Position numbers and translations under genes: made by a program
From: Bolinopsis microptera
Lineage: Eukaryota > Ctenophora > Tentaculata > Lobata > Bolinopsidae
Direction of reading: 5' to 3'
Length of the DNA: 64,000 nucleotides
Assembly (NCBI RefSeq): GCF_026151205.1
Contig: NC_087078.1
Coordinates: forward strand, 6,899,675-6,963,674
Part shown: in pieces, positions 19,784 to 46,200 of the stretch
Layout of the letters: each line of letters begins with the position of its first letter
Numbering within the stretch: the first letter of the stretch is position 1
The notes under the pieces: model-generated
Databases searched by the model: none
Told to the model about the DNA's origin: nothing
The model's input: only the letters and a program-made list of their open reading frames with translations

Positions 19784-19849
19784 ACGTTGCCGGGGTCGGT
19801 TCTGTTGCTTTAGTTAAACTGATACATATACCCACTATAATATAGTATA

Positions 19850-20232
19850 GGTAACTCGGTAATCTGCCGATGCACATCTGGGGCACACCTCGGGCACACC
19901 TGGGGCACAAACTCGGGCACACCTGGGGCACACCTCGGGCACACCTGGGGCACAAAGCGCACCTCGGGCACACCTCGGGCAGAACCACCTGGGGCACACC
20001 TCGGGCACACCTCGGGCACATCTCGGGCACATCTCGGGCAAAATTCGGGCATGGTAATTGGGGAACCTTGGGAAAAGAACCTGGGCACACCCGGGGCACA
20101 TCTCGGGCACATCTCGGGCACATCTCGGGCACACCTCGGGCAAAACCACCTGGGGCACATCTCAGGCACACCTGGGGCACATCTCGGGCACACCTCGGGC
20201 AAAACCACCTGGGGCACGGTCATTCGGGCAAT
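19850..20232 (+). repeat. Left terminal inverted repeat made of 11-bp satellite units
   Basis: About 26 bp of unique end sequence is followed by 11-bp units (cacctcgggca, cacctggggca, catctcgggca). These are interrupted by a single unique block containing ggtaattggggaacc (20050-20085). The inner end is cacggtcattcgggcaat. It is mirrored at 22945-23360 with a different unit number. ORFs across it on both strands are repeat read-through, not genes. Confidence 0.9.
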
Positions 20233-20484
20233 GAATTATGGCTGGGCTACTAACCTCAATGATATCATTTATTACCTAATTATATTTGCGATAGTATTAT
20301 ACTAGTATTATACTATCGCAATATAATATATATGAGCAATATAATTTTCAGAGACACATATCTAATATCTATTTATTTACGAACAAGTGAAAAACACGAT
20401 TGAACTGAACATAATAATTTCATTAAACTGTAAGCAATATATTACATAATCAATCGGTATATTTACAAAACTATTAAACACATT

Positions 20485-21456
20485 CTAATCAAAAATTCTA
20501 CGCATCAACTGCGGGAGCTCCTGGTTAAAATATCTTCTGACGGAAGGGCCGGAGCGGGTCAGGTGGTTCCTTCTCAGCCAGATGAATTCAGCGAGGGCGA
20601 TGTAGAGGGCTGAGGTGTCTCTTCGCGTCCTGCCGTGTCCTCGTAGCATGTGCCTCTTGGCGTGAAACCACATGCCCTCACATGTATTCGTATGAACACC
20701 GGTGACGGGGTCGACGAAGCCTCTGCTGTGGTTTACGACCAAGTGGGTGTAGCCGTGGTGTCGGAGGGCGTTGTACCCCTTCCACTTGTCGGTAAGGATG
20801 ATGGTCCCAGGAGCGACGTGTTGCTTGATTAGACGAAGAAGAGTGTGGTGGTTCCGTTTGTTGTCTGTGCACTCCACCAAGAAGCATTCGCCGGTAGTTC
20901 TGCAGTAGCCTCCAACGATCCACTTCCCGATCACTCGTCGTCCACGGTGGTACTTCCGTTTGCCGAACTTCGACTCGTCGATCTCCACGATGTGCCCGCG
21001 TCCTCCAATCTTCCTCGTTGCTCCGTTCTCCAGAAGGTCCTCCACCATACACTGTCGAATAGCTTTGTAAAGGGATCGCACTGTTTTCTCGTTCATCGAC
21101 AGGATTCTGGCTGCATCAGCAACGCTGGTACCGTTGACGAAGATCCAAAGTAGGTGGAGGAAGTTGATAAAGGTAATGTTGCGGTTGTAGAGGACACTTC
21201 CTGCTCTGACAGAGAGGTGGTGCTGACCGCCAGGACAGGACCAACAGTAGCCATCGCTGTACTTTGTGGAGGCGCAGGATCGTAGCTCCATGTAGGTGTG
21301 GCACTCTGGACAGAAATGGTTAGGACGTAGGAGTTCCACATCGAGGCAGTACTGTAGAGCTGTGGCTTCTGAAGAGAGGACTCCAGTTCTTCTGAGATCT
21401 TCGTAGGAGAGGAAAGTGAGAGCCATATTGAATGATAGTATTAGCTGTTTGCTCAT
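20485..21456 (-). CDS. Merlin transposase (ISXO2-like DDE), 323 aa
   Basis: Cuts and pastes the surrounding element. Residues 49-74 form a zinc ribbon (CPEC and CWSC pairs). Residues 109-133 look like a helix-turn-helix. The DDE catalytic core follows, with D160 in VEIDESKFG, D223 in ILTDKWKGY and E260 in HTNTCEGMW, the usual ISXO2 spacing and context. Length is normal for the family, with no frameshift or stop. The start could instead be the Met at residue 11 (NMALTF). It reads away from the second ORF, with about 385 bp between the two starts. The element's ends and target duplication match the family. Confidence 0.93.
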   Translation of the reverse strand: MSKQLILSFNMALTFLSYEDLRRTGVLSSEATALQYCLDVELLRPNHFCPECHTYMELRSCASTKYSDGYCWSCPGGQHHLSVRAGSVLYNRNITFINFLHLLWIFVNGTSVADAARILSMNEKTVRSLYKAIRQCMVEDLLENGATRKIGGRGHIVEIDESKFGKRKYHRGRRVIGKWIVGGYCRTTGECFLVECTDNKRNHHTLLRLIKQHVAPGTIILTDKWKGYNALRHHGYTHLVVNHSRGFVDPVTGVHTNTCEGMWFHAKRHMLRGHGRTRRDTSALYIALAEFIWLRRNHLTRSGPSVRRYFNQELPQLMRRIFD

Positions 21457-21840
21457 GTTTATATATCTCGACTGGAATTTTGACCGCTTGCTGGGACGTC
21501 ACAGAAGAGTACCTTATATTTGTCACGATCGCAAGACTTTGTTGTTCTTCTTATCACGTCACATGACTAGATCAAACATTCCGATTACGATGAGGCGAAG
21601 GCATTTTGATTTCTTGCCATAGCGTCACGTGAGAGGGGCTGTGAATACTCACCACGTGATCCATGTTACCGTGTTATGGCTACCATCTTGTTGGGCCATG
21701 CGATCCATGCGATCAATGCGATCCGAACCGTGAATTAACAAGCTCTGATCCCGAAACCCTCGGGTATAAAGGTTGTTATCGCATAGGTTCCTCATACCAG
21801 TTTTCGTTCTACTACCACAACATATCTACTACTATTCATC
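21457..21840. promoter_or_regulatory. Bidirectional promoter region of the Merlin element
   Basis: The divergent transposase and second ORF share this interval. It holds cacgtg E-boxes at 21626 and 21653 and a triple gcgatc word near 21698-21723 (ccatgcgatc type). The E-box words resemble those 2 kb away at 19636-19679, outside the element. Regulation is inferred from layout only. Confidence 0.4.
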
Positions 21841-22659
21841 ATGCCTACACGATCCGGACTTCGACTATCCCGACCTATTCCTCCCCCAACTTGCAGTCAT
21901 TGTGGCGCACGAGGTCACATCAACACAGTGTGTCCACGATCCTCCTACTCTCCTGTTATCCCAGCCCTCACCTGCCCCCACTGCATCCGAACAGTCCGAA
22001 GTGGACAGAGTAACGAGCCAGACGGTACGCAGATAGTGGTTACGATAGACCCCTGCGATACACACTCCTCTCCTGTCGTCAGACCGTCTCCCCCTCCCCC
22101 TCACACCCCTGCTGCTCCTACAGCACCTGTGGTTCTTCCTCCTCCTCCCCCTCGAGCTGTCGTTCCGGTAACCTCAGCACATGTTCCAGTTCCCGCTCCC
22201 GCTCCCGCTCCCGCTCCCGCTCCCGCTCCCGCTCCCGCTCCCGCTCCCGCTCCCGCTCCGGCTCCGGCTACTGTTCCGGCTGCCGCTCCTGGTCCGGCTG
22301 CCGCTACAGCTCCCACCGGTCCTGTTCCGGCCCCTTATCCTGGTTCGAGCCGCACCTTCACCATCGACGGAGAAGTTTCAAAATACGACAGGATCCTGGC
22401 ACGTGTCCGGAATGGTGCTACGAAGAAGGAGGCACTCGCTGCAGAGGGGATATCTGAGTCCTTTTTCGGCAGGAAGCGCTGCATAGCAGAGGCAGCGAGG
22501 ATTGACCTACCTTCTCTCCGACATGGACTCCTCCAGCTGATAAATCCCACGCTAAAAAACCTTCTACCAGTGGCCAGGGATATCTGCAACCGGAACCAAA
22601 CTGTGCTTCGCACACTCCACGCTTCAGGAGAAGCACTCCCTCCCAAGAGGATATACTGA
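21841..22659 (+). CDS. Second ORF of the Merlin element: CCHC knuckle plus HTH-like protein, 272 aa
   Basis: Not a known Merlin companion to my knowledge. Residues 18-31 fit a CCHC zinc knuckle (CX2CX4HX4C), and a second CPHC pair lies at 45-48. A proline-rich linker follows, with an alternating Pro-Ala run at about 116-140 coded by a (cccgct)n hexanucleotide. The C-terminal part (about 171-245) reads GATKKEALAAEGISESFF and RKR, like a helix-turn-helix. This suggests a nucleic-acid-binding accessory protein. It starts at an ATG, ends in TGA and has no breaks. It lies wholly between the inverted repeats. A captured host gene is possible. The function is unknown. Confidence 0.75.
   Translation: MPTRSGLRLSRPIPPPTCSHCGARGHINTVCPRSSYSPVIPALTCPHCIRTVRSGQSNEPDGTQIVVTIDPCDTHSSPVVRPSPPPPHTPAAPTAPVVLPPPPPRAVVPVTSAHVPVPAPAPAPAPAPAPAPAPAPAPAPAPATVPAAAPGPAAATAPTGPVPAPYPGSSRTFTIDGEVSKYDRILARVRNGATKKEALAAEGISESFFGRKRCIAEAARIDLPSLRHGLLQLINPTLKNLLPVARDICNRNQTVLRTLHASGEALPPKRIY
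22187..22262 (+). repeat. (CCCGCT)n hexanucleotide coding Pro-Ala
   Basis: About twelve near-identical cccgct units inside the second Merlin ORF. The repeat has no stop in several frames, which creates overlapping shadow ORFs on both strands. Confidence 0.9.
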
Positions 22660-22944
22660 TTTATTTTGTAGTTACAGTAATACTTATAGTTTTTAATGGT
22701 TATGAGATGTTCCGATTGATACTTTAATAATATAATATTGCTTACCTATTAAATTTATTAGATACATTATGAACAGATCAATCGTATTTTTCAATTGCTC
22801 GTTAATAATAATAAATACATTTTTTTAATAATAAAATTGTGTCCATGAAAATTATATTGCTCATACATATAGTTTAATACTGTCACCAATATAAGTAATA
22901 TAAATAATGATATCTATCATCACAGTAATAAATAATAATCCATA

Positions 22945-23360
22945 TTGCCCGAATGACCGTGCCCCAGGTGGTTTTGCCCGAGATGTGCCCCAGGTGTGCC
23001 TGAGATGTGCCCCAGGTGTGCCCCAGGTGGTTCTGCCCGAGGTGTGCCCGAGATGTGCCCGAGATGTGCCACGGGTGTGCCCAGGTTCTTTTCCCAAGGT
23101 TTCCCAATTACCATGCCCGAGATGTGCCCGAGGTGTGCCCGAGGTGTGCCCGAGGTGTGCCCGAGGTGTGCCCCAGGTGGTTCTGCCCGAGGTGTGCCCG
23201 AGGTGTGCTTTGTGCCCCAGGTGTGCCCGAGGTGTGCCCGAGGTGTGCCCGAGTTTGTGCCCCAGGTGTGCCCGAGGTGTGCCCGAGGTGTGCCCGAGTT
23301 TGTGCCCCAGGTGTGCCCGAGGTGTGCCCGAGGTGTGCATCGGCAGATTACCGAGTTACC
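22945..23360 (-). repeat. Right terminal inverted repeat made of 11-bp satellite units
   Basis: Inverted partner of 19850-20232, with the same end, the same central ggtaattgggaaacc-type block (23095-23115) and the same inner end. It has more units than the left copy, so the arrays have changed length independently since the ends were last identical. Confidence 0.9.
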
Positions 23361-23680
23361 ATAGTATATTATACTTATATACATCACCCAATCGCATTTT
23401 AATGTGGAGCGCATAATATGTTTGTTTCTGTCGTAAATGTACTATATATTTTTGGTTGGTTGATTTTAAGTTATAACATCGGCACGTTATACACGATTTA
23501 ATCGCGCAACCCTCGGAAATGATAATACCATCAGCTATATTACTAATATACATAAATCGGGGAAAGTAGAAAATATTTTCTCGAACATTGCATCGATTCC
23601 CTCATTAACTGGTGATTCCCACGCGAGAAAGTGCAAGCAAGTAAGTAGGAATAAGTTGGTAGGTGTGTCAGGTTAGCGTG

Positions 23681-40284: not shown

Positions 40285-43200
40285 ATGAAAATATTGTATC
40301 TGGTTCTCCTCCTTTTTCGGAGTTGCTCTAGCGCTTATACGGAAGACGATGGTAAGAATTTATTATATACATATTATATATATATTATATTTTAATATAC
40401 TTTATATATATATTATACTTTAATTTATTATACAATATACATATACTTTAATGTCGAATCAATTAATTGAAACAGTAGTTTTGAAAACTTAAGCATTTTT
40501 TGATACCTATAAATACAAAAAATTGCTATATAAAAGTCCCGTTTCGTTTATAAACGAATTGCATAAATGTGAGCTGTATAAAATTTAGTACTATACCTGC
40601 AAATTAGAGATTTCACAGAATTTTTAAAAAAAATTGTATTAATACTCGTAAAAAGATGTTGGGATAGCTGATCCACCAATATTTGTATACTATGGTAGTC
40701 ATTTAACTTTAACGCGGCAACGTGCCTGAAATACAGCCTAGGCATTAGTAATTTATGCATTACCGATTGACTGTTGGTTCTTTGCAGGTTTCTTAGATAT
40801 TTTTTAGGAAGCGCTATATACTTATAACTATTACAATAGCTTCCGCCATTTCATAATACAAAATACAATGCGAATATCCTTTTTTTACTCTTCAACTTTC
40901 ACGTCCATGTTTTAATAATTCGTATTTTTTGTTTTCAGGAGAGCCGGAATGGGAAATTCAACAAAAAAATGTCTGGTTTCCACACTCCTGGGAGGATATA
41001 CCTTTTGAATTGAAGACAACCTCCTCGATAGGAAGTGGTGATCGAATCTGGTTTGAAGTTGGGCACTTAAACGGCAATGTTTTTGCAAGAGTTGTAGTGC
41101 GATTAGTTGATACTCCTAACTTCGAAATTGACAACTGCCAAGGTGATACTACGCTGCAAAATCTACCCGACGCTCAAAATGACGTGAGGATTTGGACATT
41201 CATTAAGCAGGGATTGAAAGGAATTTCAATCAAGTGTAACGGAGTATTGGTTGCAGAAATGAATTTTGCTGAATCAGATCAATGTTCGTCCTCAGTGTGG
41301 GTGACTACTACAGTAGAATTCATCAAGCTTAATCCTGATTGGGATAGATCAGTGGGATTCAGATTTGGTCAGTGGGTCTCAGGTGGGTTAATATTGTGTT
41401 ATCATTATTACCTGGGGACCCCAGGCTATTCCGCCGATCAGAGATATATAAGTTCTCGAAACTTCAAAAGTTTAAACCAAATAGATCTAGTGAGCTCGTA
41501 GGATCAAATAATTTACTGGCTAGCTGCCCGATACTCAGCTGCATGCTAGCGAGGTAAATCAATAATAGTACTAAATAGAATAGTAATACTTAATAGAATT
41601 AAATTTTCATTCTGATAATATAATCTTCTCACTTCATATTTTGTTCATTGTTACAGAATGTCAAGCTGGAAAATTCAGTGCTGCCGGATCTGCAACCTGT
41701 TCTGAATGCGAAGCTGGGGAATTCAGTGCTGCTGGATCTGCAACCTGTTCTAAATGCGAAGCTGGGGAATTCAGTGCTGCCGGATCTGCAACCTGTTCTG
41801 AATGCGAAGCTGGGGAATTCAGTGTTGCTGGATCTGCAACCTGTTCTGAATGCGAAGCTGGGGAATTCAGTGCTGCTGGATCTGCAACCTGTTCTGAATG
41901 CGAAGCTGGAAAATTCAGTGCTGCCGGATCTGCAACCTGTTATGAATGCGAAGCTGGAAAATTCAGTGCTGCCGGATCTGCAACCTGTTCTGAATGCGAA
42001 GCTGGAAAATTCAGTGCTGCCGGATCTGCAACCTGTTCTGAATGCGAAGCTGGGAAATTCAGTGCTGCTGGATCTGCAACCTGTTCTGAATGCGAAGCTG
42101 GAAAATGCAGTGCAGCCGGATCTGCAACCTGTTCTGAATGCGAAGCTGGAAAATTCAGTGCTGCCGGATCTGCAACCTGTTCTGAATGCGAAGCTGGGGA
42201 ATTCAGTGCTGATGGATCTGCAACCTGTTCTGAATGCGAAGCTTGGGAATTCAGTGCTGCTGGATCTGCAACCTGTTCTGAATGCGAAGCTGGGGAATTC
42301 AGTGCTGCCGGATCTGCAACCTGTTCTGAATGCGAAGCTGGGGAATTCAGTGTTGCTGGATCTGCAACCTGTTCTGAATGCGAAGCTGGGGAATTCAGTG
42401 CTGCTGGATCTGCAACCTGTTCTGAATGCGAAGCTGGAAAATTCAGTGCTGCCGGATCTGCAACCTGTTATGAATGCGAAGCTGGAAAATTCAGTGCTGC
42501 CGGATCTGCAACCTGTTCTGAATGCGAAGCTGGAAAATTCAGTGCTGCCGGATCTGCAACCTGTTCTGAATGCGAAGCTGGGAAATTCAGTGCTGCTGGA
42601 TCTGCAACCTGTTCTGAATGCGAAGCTGGAAAATGCAGTGCAGCCGGATCTGCAACCTGTTCTGAATGCGAAGCTGGAAAATTCAGTGCTGCCGGATCTG
42701 CAACCTGTTCTGAATGCGAAGCTGGGGAATTCAGTGCTGATGGATCTGCAACCTGTTCTGAATGCGAAGCTTGGGAATTCAGTGCTGCTGGATCTGCAAC
42801 CTGTTCTGAATGCGAAGCTGGAAAATTCAGTGCTGCCGGATCTGCAACCTGTTCTGAATGCGAAGCTGGAAAATTCAGTGCTGCCGGATCTGCAACCTGT
42901 TCTGAATGCGAAGCTGGGGAATTCAGTGCTGCAGGATCTGATTCTTGCAGTTCTTGCGAAATAGGAAAAGAGGCTAACTCTGAGAAAACTAATTGTAGTG
43001 AGTATCGGGATTTCAATTGTTAATTTTGTATTTCAAAATTCAAATAAATTTCACATCAAAATGTTGCAATTAAATTTACACAAGACCAAAATATCTATAT
43101 AATGAGGCAACAACAAGATTTATGAAGGTACAAGGAACATGATAATGAAAATCAACACTACCAGACTGCAGCTGAAGTGAGGAAACATTTGACTGTGGGA

Positions 43201-46200
43201 TATACTGAAGGGAAAGGAAGCAGTTCTAACGAGCTCTTCTCAAACACAAGGATATATCTTGTGAACGTGGCTAGTATAAATGAAACATTTGATATGGAGT
43301 TGTAGAGGGAGTTATGTGCCTCGCCGGGCTTAAGTAGTGGATGACCTTGCTGTACGCAGTGGCGTAACGTTGCCTGTTGGCGCCCCCCTGCCGAAAAGGC
43401 GCCCCCCTGTTGGCGCCCACTCCCCTTTTGGTGCCCCTCCCTAAAATTGAACAAATTAGGTGATTTTAGAGGATACGCCGGTAAAATCTCTAAAAAAGTG
43501 TGTATCTAGAGCAAAACGCGCAGTTTTGCTAGTACTTTAGTTAAGTTTTCGAAATTGTCCCACATTCAAACGACGATTTGGCGCCCCCCTAAGACGGCGC
43601 CCCCCTGCACAGCGGGGTCAGCAGGGCCCTTCGTTACGCCACTGGCTGTACGGCAAGTTAAACAAGGATCTGAAACTACTAGGTTCCGTACAGACTCAAC
43701 TCTGCACCCGTGTCAATATGTTCATTATATGCAAGCCTCTTGATTTATAATCACCGAGTCTAGTAATTGTTTAAGAGAGTGCTCTGGCAGTTACGAAACT
43801 CGAGAGACTGTGGGATACTGAAGGGAAAGGAAGCAGTTCTAACGAGCTCTTCTCAAACACAAGGATATATCTTGTGAACGTGGCTAGTATAAATGAAACA
43901 TTTGATATGGAGTTGTAGAGGGAGTTATGTGCCTCGCCGGGCTAAAGTAGTGGATGACCTTGCTGTACGGCAAGTTAAACAAGGATCTGAAACTACTAGG
44001 TTCCGTACAGACTCAACTCTGCACCCGTGTCAATATGTTCATTATATGCAAGCCTCTTGATTTATAATCTATTTCGATTAAACCAAAACAGTGCACGCGA
44101 CGGTTCAACCATAATGACATCAAGTGTAATATTGTCCAGGAACAAGAAGAGTTGTTCGTAATCAGAGTAGTATAGTTTATTTTGGCCAGTTGGTAGATCA
44201 CCGACCGGCTATAAGCCGGCTACTAACCGGCTTTAAGCCGGCTACAATTTTTATAGCCGGCTATAAGCCGGCTTATAGCCGGTTAGTAGCCGCTTACATT
44301 TGTTGTTGAGCGACGGCTATTAGCCGGTTATAAGCCTGCTATTAGCCGTTTTGGTATTAAAAGTGGTTATAAGCCGGCTATAAGCCGGTTATAAGATACT
44401 AACTCAACTACATCGTACTGAACGATAGTCAGGAGCCGGCTATAAGAAATTCAGTGAAAACGGCTATTAGCCGGTTATAAGCCGGCTATTAGCCGTTTAG
44501 GTATCGAAAGTGGTTATAAGCCGGCTATAAGCCGGCTATAAGCCGGTTATAAGATATTAACTCAGTTCAGTACGATGAAGTTAAGTTAATATCTTATAGC
44601 CGGCTTATAGCCGGCTTATAACCACTTTCGATACCTAAACGGCTAATAGCCGGCTTATAACCGGCTTATAGCCGTTTTCGCTGAATTTCTTATAGCCGGC
44701 TCATGACTATCGTTCAGTACGATGTAGTTGAGTTAATATCTTATAACCGGCTTATAGCCCGCTTATAACCACTTTCGATACCTAAACGGCTAATAGCCGG
44801 CTTATAACCGGCTAATAGCCGTTTTCACTGAATTTCTTATAGCCGATACCTAAACGGCTAATAGCCGGCTTATAACCGGCTAATAGCCGTCGCTCAACAA
44901 CAAATGTAAGCGGCTACTAACCGGCTATAAGCCGGCTATAAAAATTGTAGCCGGCTATAAGCCGGTTTATAGCCGGCTTATAACCGGCTTATAGCCGGTC
45001 GGTGATCTACCAATTTCCCTTTATTTTTAAATAGACATGGAACCAACTTCCTAATGGTTGATAACCTTTTCAGTGTCCTGTCTAGCGGGTACCTACAAAG
45101 ACAGTTCCATGGAAGCGTGTCTGCAGTGTTCTAGTAACACCTACAGTGCAGAGAGTGCGGGATTCTGTACTGCTTGTCCTCAAGGATCTCAAGCAAATGA
45201 AAATCGGACAAAATGCGGTAAATCTTTTAAGTTTTTATTTGACTCGAAGCTTTGCAATTCATTTTTTGCTATACCTGCCTTATATTATGGTTTTGGCAAA
45301 TAAATGTAGGACTTACGACGTAAACAAAGTGTCTGTAACCTTGCACAAAAATCATTTAATAATCCTTATTTGAACAAATAAAAAAAGTATGATTAACAAC
45401 AATATCAATCATGTACTCCATCCTCAGTTTCATGTGAGAGCTTGCCCTCAAGCTGGGAACAGATAATGACACAGTCACAGTTCCCCCTCGCACCTGGGAG
45501 TGAAGTGTCCTTGATGTGTAGCACCGGACACACTCTGACTGGAGCCAGCACTGTCACGTGTATTGAGGAAGATGACTTCTCCTTCAACGAAGAGCCTTTT
45601 TGTGTTCTAGGTTTGAAGATCCGCTGTATTAAAGTATTAGATACGCTATTTTTTTCCTCAAATTTGTAATTTGATGTAGTAATATAGCATATTATCATTA
45701 ATAAAGTGTTTCTGTTAACTTTTCTCCATCAAGGCTTCATTTTGCTTTTCTTTAAAAAGTTAATTTAAAGCATCATATTTTTCGCATATGAGTGTGGTGT
45801 TAACTGTTAAATCATGTGTTTTTTCTCCTTTTTATTTCCTAAGTCATTTTAATCGTCGCACCTTGACTTATAGCTTAGTAATTAAAATATACATACAGAC
45901 GACTGCAGCAAACTGCCGAACATCCAGAACCTAGGAACAACCACCCAATTTCCTGTTTCCTACGATACCCGGGTAACAGTGCATTGTGATGCTGGGTACT
46001 CTCTTGTAGGTGGTGACGTCATCACATGTATCCAGGATGATAACTATAAAACTATTGATGGTCAACTTCCTTCTTGCGAAGAAAGTGAGTTTATCGTTGT
46101 TACTTCTACCATTAACGGTTTTATGTATTTAGAGCTGAATATGGAAAAGATTTCTACTTTGCCAGGTTAACCACACAATTGCACGATACTGTTGACTGTT

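Follow-up and report, generated by a model that had tools for sequence, protein, structure and literature searches.

A two-gene Merlin transposon in the ctenophore Bolinopsis microptera with a putative accessory protein not found in the open-access literature

PIF/Harbinger elements encode a Myb-like second protein with a helix-turn-helix (HTH)-type DNA-binding domain beside their DDE transposase, and in CACTA/Spm elements the protein TnpA is thought to gather and pair the ends at subterminal repeats. Merlin/IS1595 elements are characterized by a DDE_Tnp_IS1595 transposase, ends starting with GG, a duplication of 8 or 9 bp, and internal tandem repeats, and members of the IS1595 family are described with a single transposase gene, according to the portion of the 2021 Merlin survey that was available (PMC8101967). 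The same portion states that Merlin transposases lack the N-terminal zinc domain Zn_Tnp_IS1595, and no mention of a second or additional gene or ORF was found in the available main text, supplements excluded (PMC8101967). Likewise, no second conserved Merlin gene was found in the open-access literature, in a search that did not cover Repbase. The element described here is a Merlin with two genes, the second coding for a putative accessory protein of a new type, unreported as far as the open-access literature shows; a single host genome is the source of all the evidence.

The window, that is, the whole stretch of 64,000 nucleotides that was analysed, contains a complete Merlin element of 3511 bp (19850..23360), assigned to family A and delimited by perfect 26-bp inverted ends and an exact 8-bp duplication. 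The target-site duplication reads ATAGTATA on both the left (19842..19849) and the right (23361..23368), and the left terminal inverted repeat (GGTAACTCGGTAATCTGCCGATGCAC, 26 bp, 19850..19875, plus strand) is matched perfectly by the right one (23335..23360, minus strand), both ends (19850 and 23360) starting with GGTAACTCGG. Across the genome, 90 ends matched the family A terminal repeat with at most 2 mismatches, including 60 exact matches, and a reversed control gave 0. Adjoining the terminal repeats are GC-rich satellite arms with an 11-bp period, detected with Tandem Repeats Finder on the left (19872..20201, plus strand) and inverted relative to it on the right (22975..23338, minus strand). 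The transposase gene (20485..21456, minus strand) encodes 323 aa with a DDE_Tnp_IS1595 domain, matching PF12762 at E 1.9e-15 (57.6 bits, cut-off 27) and NCBIfam IS1595 at E 1.6e-30. A spacer of 384 bases (21457..21840) separates the divergent gene starts and holds 3.2 copies of a 9-bp CCATGCGAT repeat (21696-21724) and, by eye only, a TATAAA (21765-21770). The second gene, ORF2 (21841..22659, plus strand), has 272 codons and a stop, begins with ATG, has no internal stop, and is supported by its recurrence. An earlier note on this DNA had described an intact 272-codon ORF lying divergently inside Merlin ends, and its coordinates and motif positions proved correct.

The window element resembles the described Merlin/IS1595 (IS1016) elements in its transposase domain, its GG ends, its 8-bp duplication (ATAGTATA), and its internal tandem repeats, but differs in that a second gene stands beside the transposase or its remnant in six families. 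The trait of a sole transposase gene is not fulfilled, with a second ORF lying between the ends in families A, B, and E; since this is a usual trait and not a strict criterion, the two-gene element is still classed as Merlin. The window transposase gave no Pfam match to Zn_Tnp_IS1595 at E≤1, yet it has a CX2C...C...WxC motif near its N-terminus, which is common to the transposases of families A, B, D, E, and F (window, L023, L050, L052, and L032). Elsewhere in the window, a long palindromic array with an 11-bp CCGGCTA-type unit (44190-45013) resembles the arms of family C and is perhaps a deletion derivative of a related Merlin, and a 48-bp unit repeated 26.8 times with 95% match (41656-42940) can be read by eye as a Cys-containing 16-residue protein repeat.

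Relatives of the element were grouped into families A to G. The ORF2 proteins of five family A copies, including that of the window, are 95-100% identical, with 260-272 residues; both genes are intact in the window, C3:1.518M, and C3:16.518M, and in C1:17.445M the transposase is intact and ORF2 is broken. These four family A copies are flanked by exact duplications (ATAGTATA, GAATCGTC, AAAACATG, and ACTTAATT). In family B, whose transposase is 64% identical to that of A, a 315-aa transposase is accompanied by an ORF2 of 330-422 aa in L023, L024, L025, and L026, with exact duplications in L023, L025, and L026 and none in L024; a further copy, L049, also encodes a transposase of 315 aa, and the end of its ORF2 is altered. 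The gaps between the two genes in family B (533, 612, 691, and 770) differ by steps of 79, and L023 carries 5.7 copies of a 79-bp tandem repeat between its divergent genes (2180-2630). In family C, the ORF2 frame is uninterrupted up to the stop at two loci, L033 and L034, and neither has a transposase match nearby; in other copies, pieces of the transposase lie at a distance of 1.6-2.3 kb on the same strand. Two unusual loci of this type were observed: a single open frame at L055:798-2246 (minus strand) that fuses a partial DDE transposase to the linker and C-terminal domain of a family C ORF2, probably via deletion, and a family C-type ORF2 at C7:2037381-2045891 (L043, L056, and L044), whose linker has grown to about 8 kb, with open stretches of 731 and 2080 aa in one frame and a zinc knuckle short of one residue. 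Family D is represented by L030, with an ORF2 of 264 aa divergent from a partial transposase, and by L050, with an intact transposase and no ORF2 match.

Families E and F form a second deep clade, with transposases that share 37-41% identity with the A, B, and D transposases, and their ORF2s were found with the profile of the A-D ORF2s. The family E element L052 has perfect ends, the duplication GAGCACAG, an ORF2 of 288 aa, and a transposase frameshifted near its end. In family F, L061 combines a full ORF2 (329 aa) with a truncated transposase, and in L032 and L047 the transposase is intact and the zinc part of ORF2 is gone, through two different deletions; exact duplications were found for L061, L047, and L062. 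Family G consists of L060, with an ORF2 of 381 aa counted from the first ATG and no transposase found within 5 kb.

The association of the two genes was assessed across the genome, where the window ORF2 query gave at least 117 matches and the window transposase at least 127; merging of these lower-bound matches within 3 kb on one strand yielded 87 ORF2 loci and 105 transposase loci for the A-D query. Among the matches listed, 27 of the 87 ORF2 loci lay within 4 kb of a transposase, compared with a mean of 0.33 and a maximum of 3 in 200 random placements, in which contig C13 was taken as 12 Mb and not its actual 16.35 Mb, with small effect. The pairs were divergent in 18 cases, on the same strand in 9, and convergent in 0. 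The family E ORF2 query and the family F transposase query gave at least 97 and at least 132 matches genome-wide, respectively, and 21 of 74 ORF2 loci among the matches listed were within 4 kb of a transposase (random mean 0.32, maximum 3 in 1000), a count that uses all 132 transposase rows and in which the 74 loci include three host-array loci and family G. These pairs were convergent, as in E, in 12 cases, tandem, as in F, in 9, and divergent in 0. Gene order thus differs by lineage and yet the genes stay paired, the pair having survived rearrangement, and ORF2 or its relatives adjoin transposases or remnants in families of both deep clades, six in all. Against an accessory role of ORF2 were counted the loci of this gene without a transposase match within 4 kb, which, among the matches listed, numbered 60 of 87 for the A-D query and 53 of 74 for the E/F query.

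In eight elements, from families A, B, and E, the 8-bp duplication is exact and both genes are represented between the ends, including C1:17.445M, with its broken ORF2, and L052, with its frameshifted transposase. Duplications were checked in 17 copies and were exact over 8 bp in 11, matched in 7 of 8 letters in L002 and L049, and were absent in L003, L007, L024, and L050. The earlier note had looked to recurrence between Merlin ends in several copies for support, and this was found, within this genome only, in these eight elements of three families and in a pairing far above chance. Its converse, that other copies of the transposon would lack the ORF, holds in part. An intact transposase, meaning a near-full-length open frame and not a tested enzyme, was present in 15 copies (4 A, 7 B-type, 1 D, and 3 F); 11 of them have adjoining ORF2 sequence, 7 with a full intact ORF2 (3 A and 4 B), so the refutation does not apply as written, and the remaining L027, L031, L050, and L051, without any ORF2 profile match, were counted against an accessory role. 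A full-length open ORF2 is also present in L002, L003, L034, and L061, whose transposase is either deleted or truncated or could not be found. The family F copy L047 has its exact 8-bp duplication despite a damaged ORF2, although the damage may predate or postdate the insertion; if loss or damage of ORF2 is older than such insertions, ORF2 is not needed in cis, being either supplied in trans or dispensable. An apparent absence of ORF2 from far-clade transposases (0 of 39 transposase loci with less than 55% identity had an ORF2 match) was rejected as an artefact of the window-protein query, as the A-D profile found diverged ORF2s.

Comparison of the N-terminal regions of ORF2 from seven families showed that the invariant columns are exactly eight Cys/His residues, C18, C21, H26, C31, C45, C48, C72, and H75. 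The first set (C18, C21, H26, and C31; CX2CX4HX4C; 21892..21933, plus strand) and the second (C45, C48, C72, and H75; CX2C...CX2H; 21973..22065, plus strand) are each invariant in 7 of 7 families, and the N-terminus reads, from its sequence, as a two-zinc module in which zinc binding by both sets is inferred. The CCHC knuckle of the earlier note was right as to residues 18, 21, 26, and 31, but it is not a lone knuckle, the second Cys/His set having been missed. The first set is like the zf-CCHC zinc knuckle (PF00098) in its residues and, in families A-D, in its spacing; it differs in remaining below the profile cut-off in the printed scores and in being merely half of a larger module. Four of seven members matched PF00098 at E≤1 (window member E 0.18, best E 0.00045), with printed scores of 18.7, 15.8, and 12.4 bits, all under the cut-off of 20.8, and the spacing is CX2CX3HX4C in families E, F, and G. 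A PDB sequence search with the zinc alignment gave top rows that fit the knuckle half, with a Gag nucleocapsid chain at E 0.0013, and the structure model of residues 1-87 reached a pLDDT of only 46. The Pro-Ala linker also claimed by that note is present after the zinc residues (22066..22341, plus strand), is partly covered by a 6-bp tandem repeat (22191-22314, plus strand), and varies in length among copies, the whole protein measuring 330-422 aa in the five full family B copies against the shorter proteins of family A.

The C-terminal domain of ORF2 (22345..22656, plus strand; 104 residues) is predicted to be of CCDC106 type with an HTH, on the basis of an AlphaFold2 model, the alignment, and the profile matches of relatives. 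The single-sequence AlphaFold2 model of residues 168-272 was of moderate quality (mean pLDDT 71, pTM 0.39), with helices at 175-190, 195-202, and 206-219 followed by a long one at 223-262. The segment had previously been read as HTH-like, with a three-helix fold expected for residues 171-245; the domain is indeed predicted to be helical and to contain an HTH, but it is longer than proposed and of CCDC106 type. When HTH profiles were compared with 13 aligned C-terminal domains (7 from ORF2 and 6 from host exons) at E≤1, HTH_7 matched 3 of 13 (best 1.6e-5), and HTH_28 and HTH_29 matched 5 of 13 each; no Myb family was present among the Pfam matches listed for the ORF2 proteins, where HTH families of other kinds were.

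The CCDC106 profile (PF15794) matched 9 of the 13 aligned members at E≤1, the best (6e-9) being a host exon; the relatives of ORF2 matched within profile positions 115-219 of 220, with E-values of 7.3e-6 for F, 3.2e-5 for G, 1.8e-4 for E, and 0.019 for C. No direct match was seen for the C-terminal domains of A, B, and D, member details having been examined for 10 of 13; the window ORF2 had none at E≤1 over its full length and none at E≤10 for its C-terminal 105 aa, and no Pfam family matched the window domain. None of the printed ORF2 scores reaches the curated cut-off of 30.2 bits, the best being 26.5 (family G, genome search). A six-frame genome search with PF15794 at E≤0.01 gave eight matches, half of them in a host-like exon array on C10 and the others in families F (three) and G (one), and two of the C10 exons exceeded the cut-off with 36.9 and 34.1 bits. 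The family A domain is 47% identical to that of family C, and the profile of A-D ORF2s finds family F at E 2.4e-6 among the fetched loci. Judged by this chain of relatives (C, F, and G), and not by the window protein directly, the C-terminal domain of ORF2 is homologous to that of CCDC106. The likeness is confined to this helical domain; the N-terminal half and coiled coil of CCDC106 are absent from the ORF2 and host matches, whose printed alignments start at profile position 104 or later, and in place of the N-terminal half ORF2 has its two-zinc module and Pro-rich linker. Structural comparisons with the C-terminal model were weak. Foldseek returned nothing at E≤0.001, and VIA-align ranked an algal photosystem subunit first (Z 8.1), followed by TnpE (5.6), a GAT-domain complex (4.8), a Fis-Xis DNA complex (4.7), DeoR (4.6), and CENP-B (4.4), the lower rows being tied and nothing conclusive; the highest entry for any transposon or DNA-binding protein thus stands at Z 5.6, and the weakness of these matches was counted against an accessory role. 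PDB sequence searches gave only low-complexity-like matches for the window ORF2 (best E 0.017) and, for the C-terminal alignment, a best E of 0.13 (Tn552-type invertase).

The host-like array lies at C10:10829500-10847300 (L058, L064, and L059; minus strand) and comprises six exon-sized CCDC106-type domains, with a stop immediately after each, together with, by eye, at least 8 exon-sized C2H2 finger units. Its layout resembles that of a gene in which many DNA-binding exons serve as alternative last exons, an arrangement of which lola of insects is an example. None of the 148 matches listed in a search for a BTB domain falls in C10:10.83-10.86 Mb, but only 150 of 309 candidates were scored and absence is not shown. 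The host exons (C10:10.83-10.85 Mb) have only the C-terminal domain in common with ORF2, at 18-24% identity to that of the window, and no convincing zinc module was found at the locus, where the best profile match (E 0.0074) covers a short stretch. A tree of the C-terminal domain that includes the host exons has no starred branch, leaving the direction of transfer between host and ORF2 unresolved. The earlier note would have regarded the ORF as merely trapped had a single-copy host orthologue existed elsewhere; this is not what was found, since the C10 relatives are six domains that match the C-terminal part only. A trapped single-copy host gene is ruled out by the recurrence of ORF2, its linkage to the transposase, and the multi-domain host locus.

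Comparisons of the two ORF2 domains between families A and B, A and C, B and C, and E and F showed saturated silent sites (pS 0.74-0.88) with pN of 0.30-0.41, and the transposase gave a pN of 0.23 (A-B) and 0.20 (E-F). ORF2 is under constraint, yet evolves faster than the transposase; deeper comparisons between families are too diverged for an estimate (pN up to 0.65). A chance open frame is ruled out, as homologues remain open at 45-54% identity over the two ORF2 domains with saturated silent sites. The transposase and ORF2 trees both separate {A,B,D} from {E,F}, with support of 100/100 each and finer branching unresolved; C and G were included only for ORF2, in whose tree the split is between A-D and E-F-G, and a long-branch warning for D and G touches the support of its deep branch. 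ORF2 is, with high probability, a functional gene belonging to the element.

What that function would be is less certain. With somewhat better than even confidence, ORF2 serves transposition as an accessory protein, binding element DNA and acting as a partner of the transposase, a mechanism that is inferred and a function that is untested. This reading rests on the position of ORF2 inside the ends, its linkage to the transposase, which holds in two clades and three gene orders, and the retention of its frame, ligands, and C-terminal domain under silent saturation. The CCDC106-type HTH domain would bind element DNA, most likely at the inverted ends or at the arms with their 11-bp period, the two-zinc module may touch a further ORF2 molecule or the transposase, and the low-complexity linker, whose length is free to vary, could let both ends of the protein act far apart. 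Bound in a row, several ORF2 molecules could bring the element ends together in a pair on which the transposase acts, as has been proposed for TnpA. The 11-bp period of the arms is near one helical turn and might offer a natural array of sites in families A-D; arms with this period and other sequences were found in one copy each of B, C, and D, and such arms of differing sequence would suit an array of binding sites. In E/F, however, the arms have units of 14-15 bp and not 11 bp, which was counted against the idea. Also counted against it were the binding of a protein, the p53 activation domain, by the corresponding region of human CCDC106 (PMC10713525) and the family F copies L032 and L047, in which an intact transposase stands beside an ORF2 that has lost its zinc part. 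If single-gene copies still move, the proteins must act in trans. Like TnpA of CACTA/Spm, ORF2 would be the second protein of a cut-and-paste element with short subterminal repeats, although the transposase superfamily is not the same, and it resembles the Myb-like protein of PIF/Harbinger as a separate HTH-type protein next to a DDE transposase, but has a zinc module and no Myb match among the Pfam matches listed.

Other roles for ORF2 can be considered. It could be a regulator of the element itself, which would bind the spacer between the genes or the arms and set transposase expression without a role in cut-and-paste; the short common divergent spacers of A (385-404 by the measure of the pairing count, in four copies with an intact transposase) and B (533-770) hold tandem repeats (9 bp in A and 79 bp x5.7 in the B copy L023) that an HTH protein could bind. 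We consider this unlikely, since the convergent and tandem pairs of the far clade keep ORF2 without a common divergent promoter and the printed spacer repeat units of A and B differ. The zinc part could also act as a nucleic-acid chaperone on element DNA or RNA, in the manner of the retroviral nucleocapsid knuckle, with the HTH being secondary. Only the first zinc set supports this, through its fit to CCHC knuckles (zf-CCHC and the Gag nucleocapsid chain, at the E-values given above), and the idea is scarcely credible when the second, un-knuckle-like CX2C...CX2H set is equally invariant and the first is spaced CX2CX3HX4C in E, F, and G.

Two further possibilities involve the host. The C-terminal region of CCDC106 is predicted to be compact and helix-rich and binds the p53 activation domain by pulldown, as reported in the accessible part of PMC10713525, where no mention of DNA binding by CCDC106 was found, and CCDC106 is nuclear and promotes p53 degradation according to the part of PMC6423756 consulted. 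As the C-terminal domain of ORF2 is related to that of CCDC106, ORF2 could likewise attach to a host regulator, the counterpart in humans being the p53 activation domain, and thereby soften the DNA-damage response to transposition. Such an action on the host appears rather improbable: every printed ORF2 score is under the PF15794 cut-off, A, B, and D are unmatched, and the domain reads as an HTH. ORF2 might instead be a captured host gene that merely rides on the element without a role in it, for which CCDC106-type exons in the same genome (C10:10.829-10.847 Mb) make a host source conceivable and the many ORF2 loci without a nearby transposase are compatible evidence. A useless passenger should decay, however, and constraint is found in families of two clades and three gene orders, the two trees agree in their deep split, and the zinc module was not convincingly found at the host locus; we therefore regard a mere rider as quite improbable.

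Merlin is described as a simple eukaryotic cut-and-paste system; a second gene kept across two deep clades would make it a two-component system in this lineage, and the C-terminal domain is a lead on the origin of the p53-binding CCDC106. It is conceivable, though doubtful on present evidence, that a Merlin accessory protein was the ancestor of the C-terminal domain of vertebrate CCDC106 as well as of the CCDC106-type exon array in the ctenophore, which would make it a helper domain that hosts have co-opted more than once; no link between CCDC106 and transposons was found in the open-access literature. Two other features of the genome were observed. The region C6:15.35-15.85 Mb is dense in fragments of Merlin ORF2 and transposase, some of them in repeated near-identical pairs, and is perhaps heterochromatic or centromeric. 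A ctenophore photoprotein had 61 matches genome-wide, those of full length with 85-90% identity, and near-identical genes of this kind form tandem arrays at C5:17012652-17026413, C13:11082373-11094352, C1:21999334-22006938, and C3:3415412-3427375.
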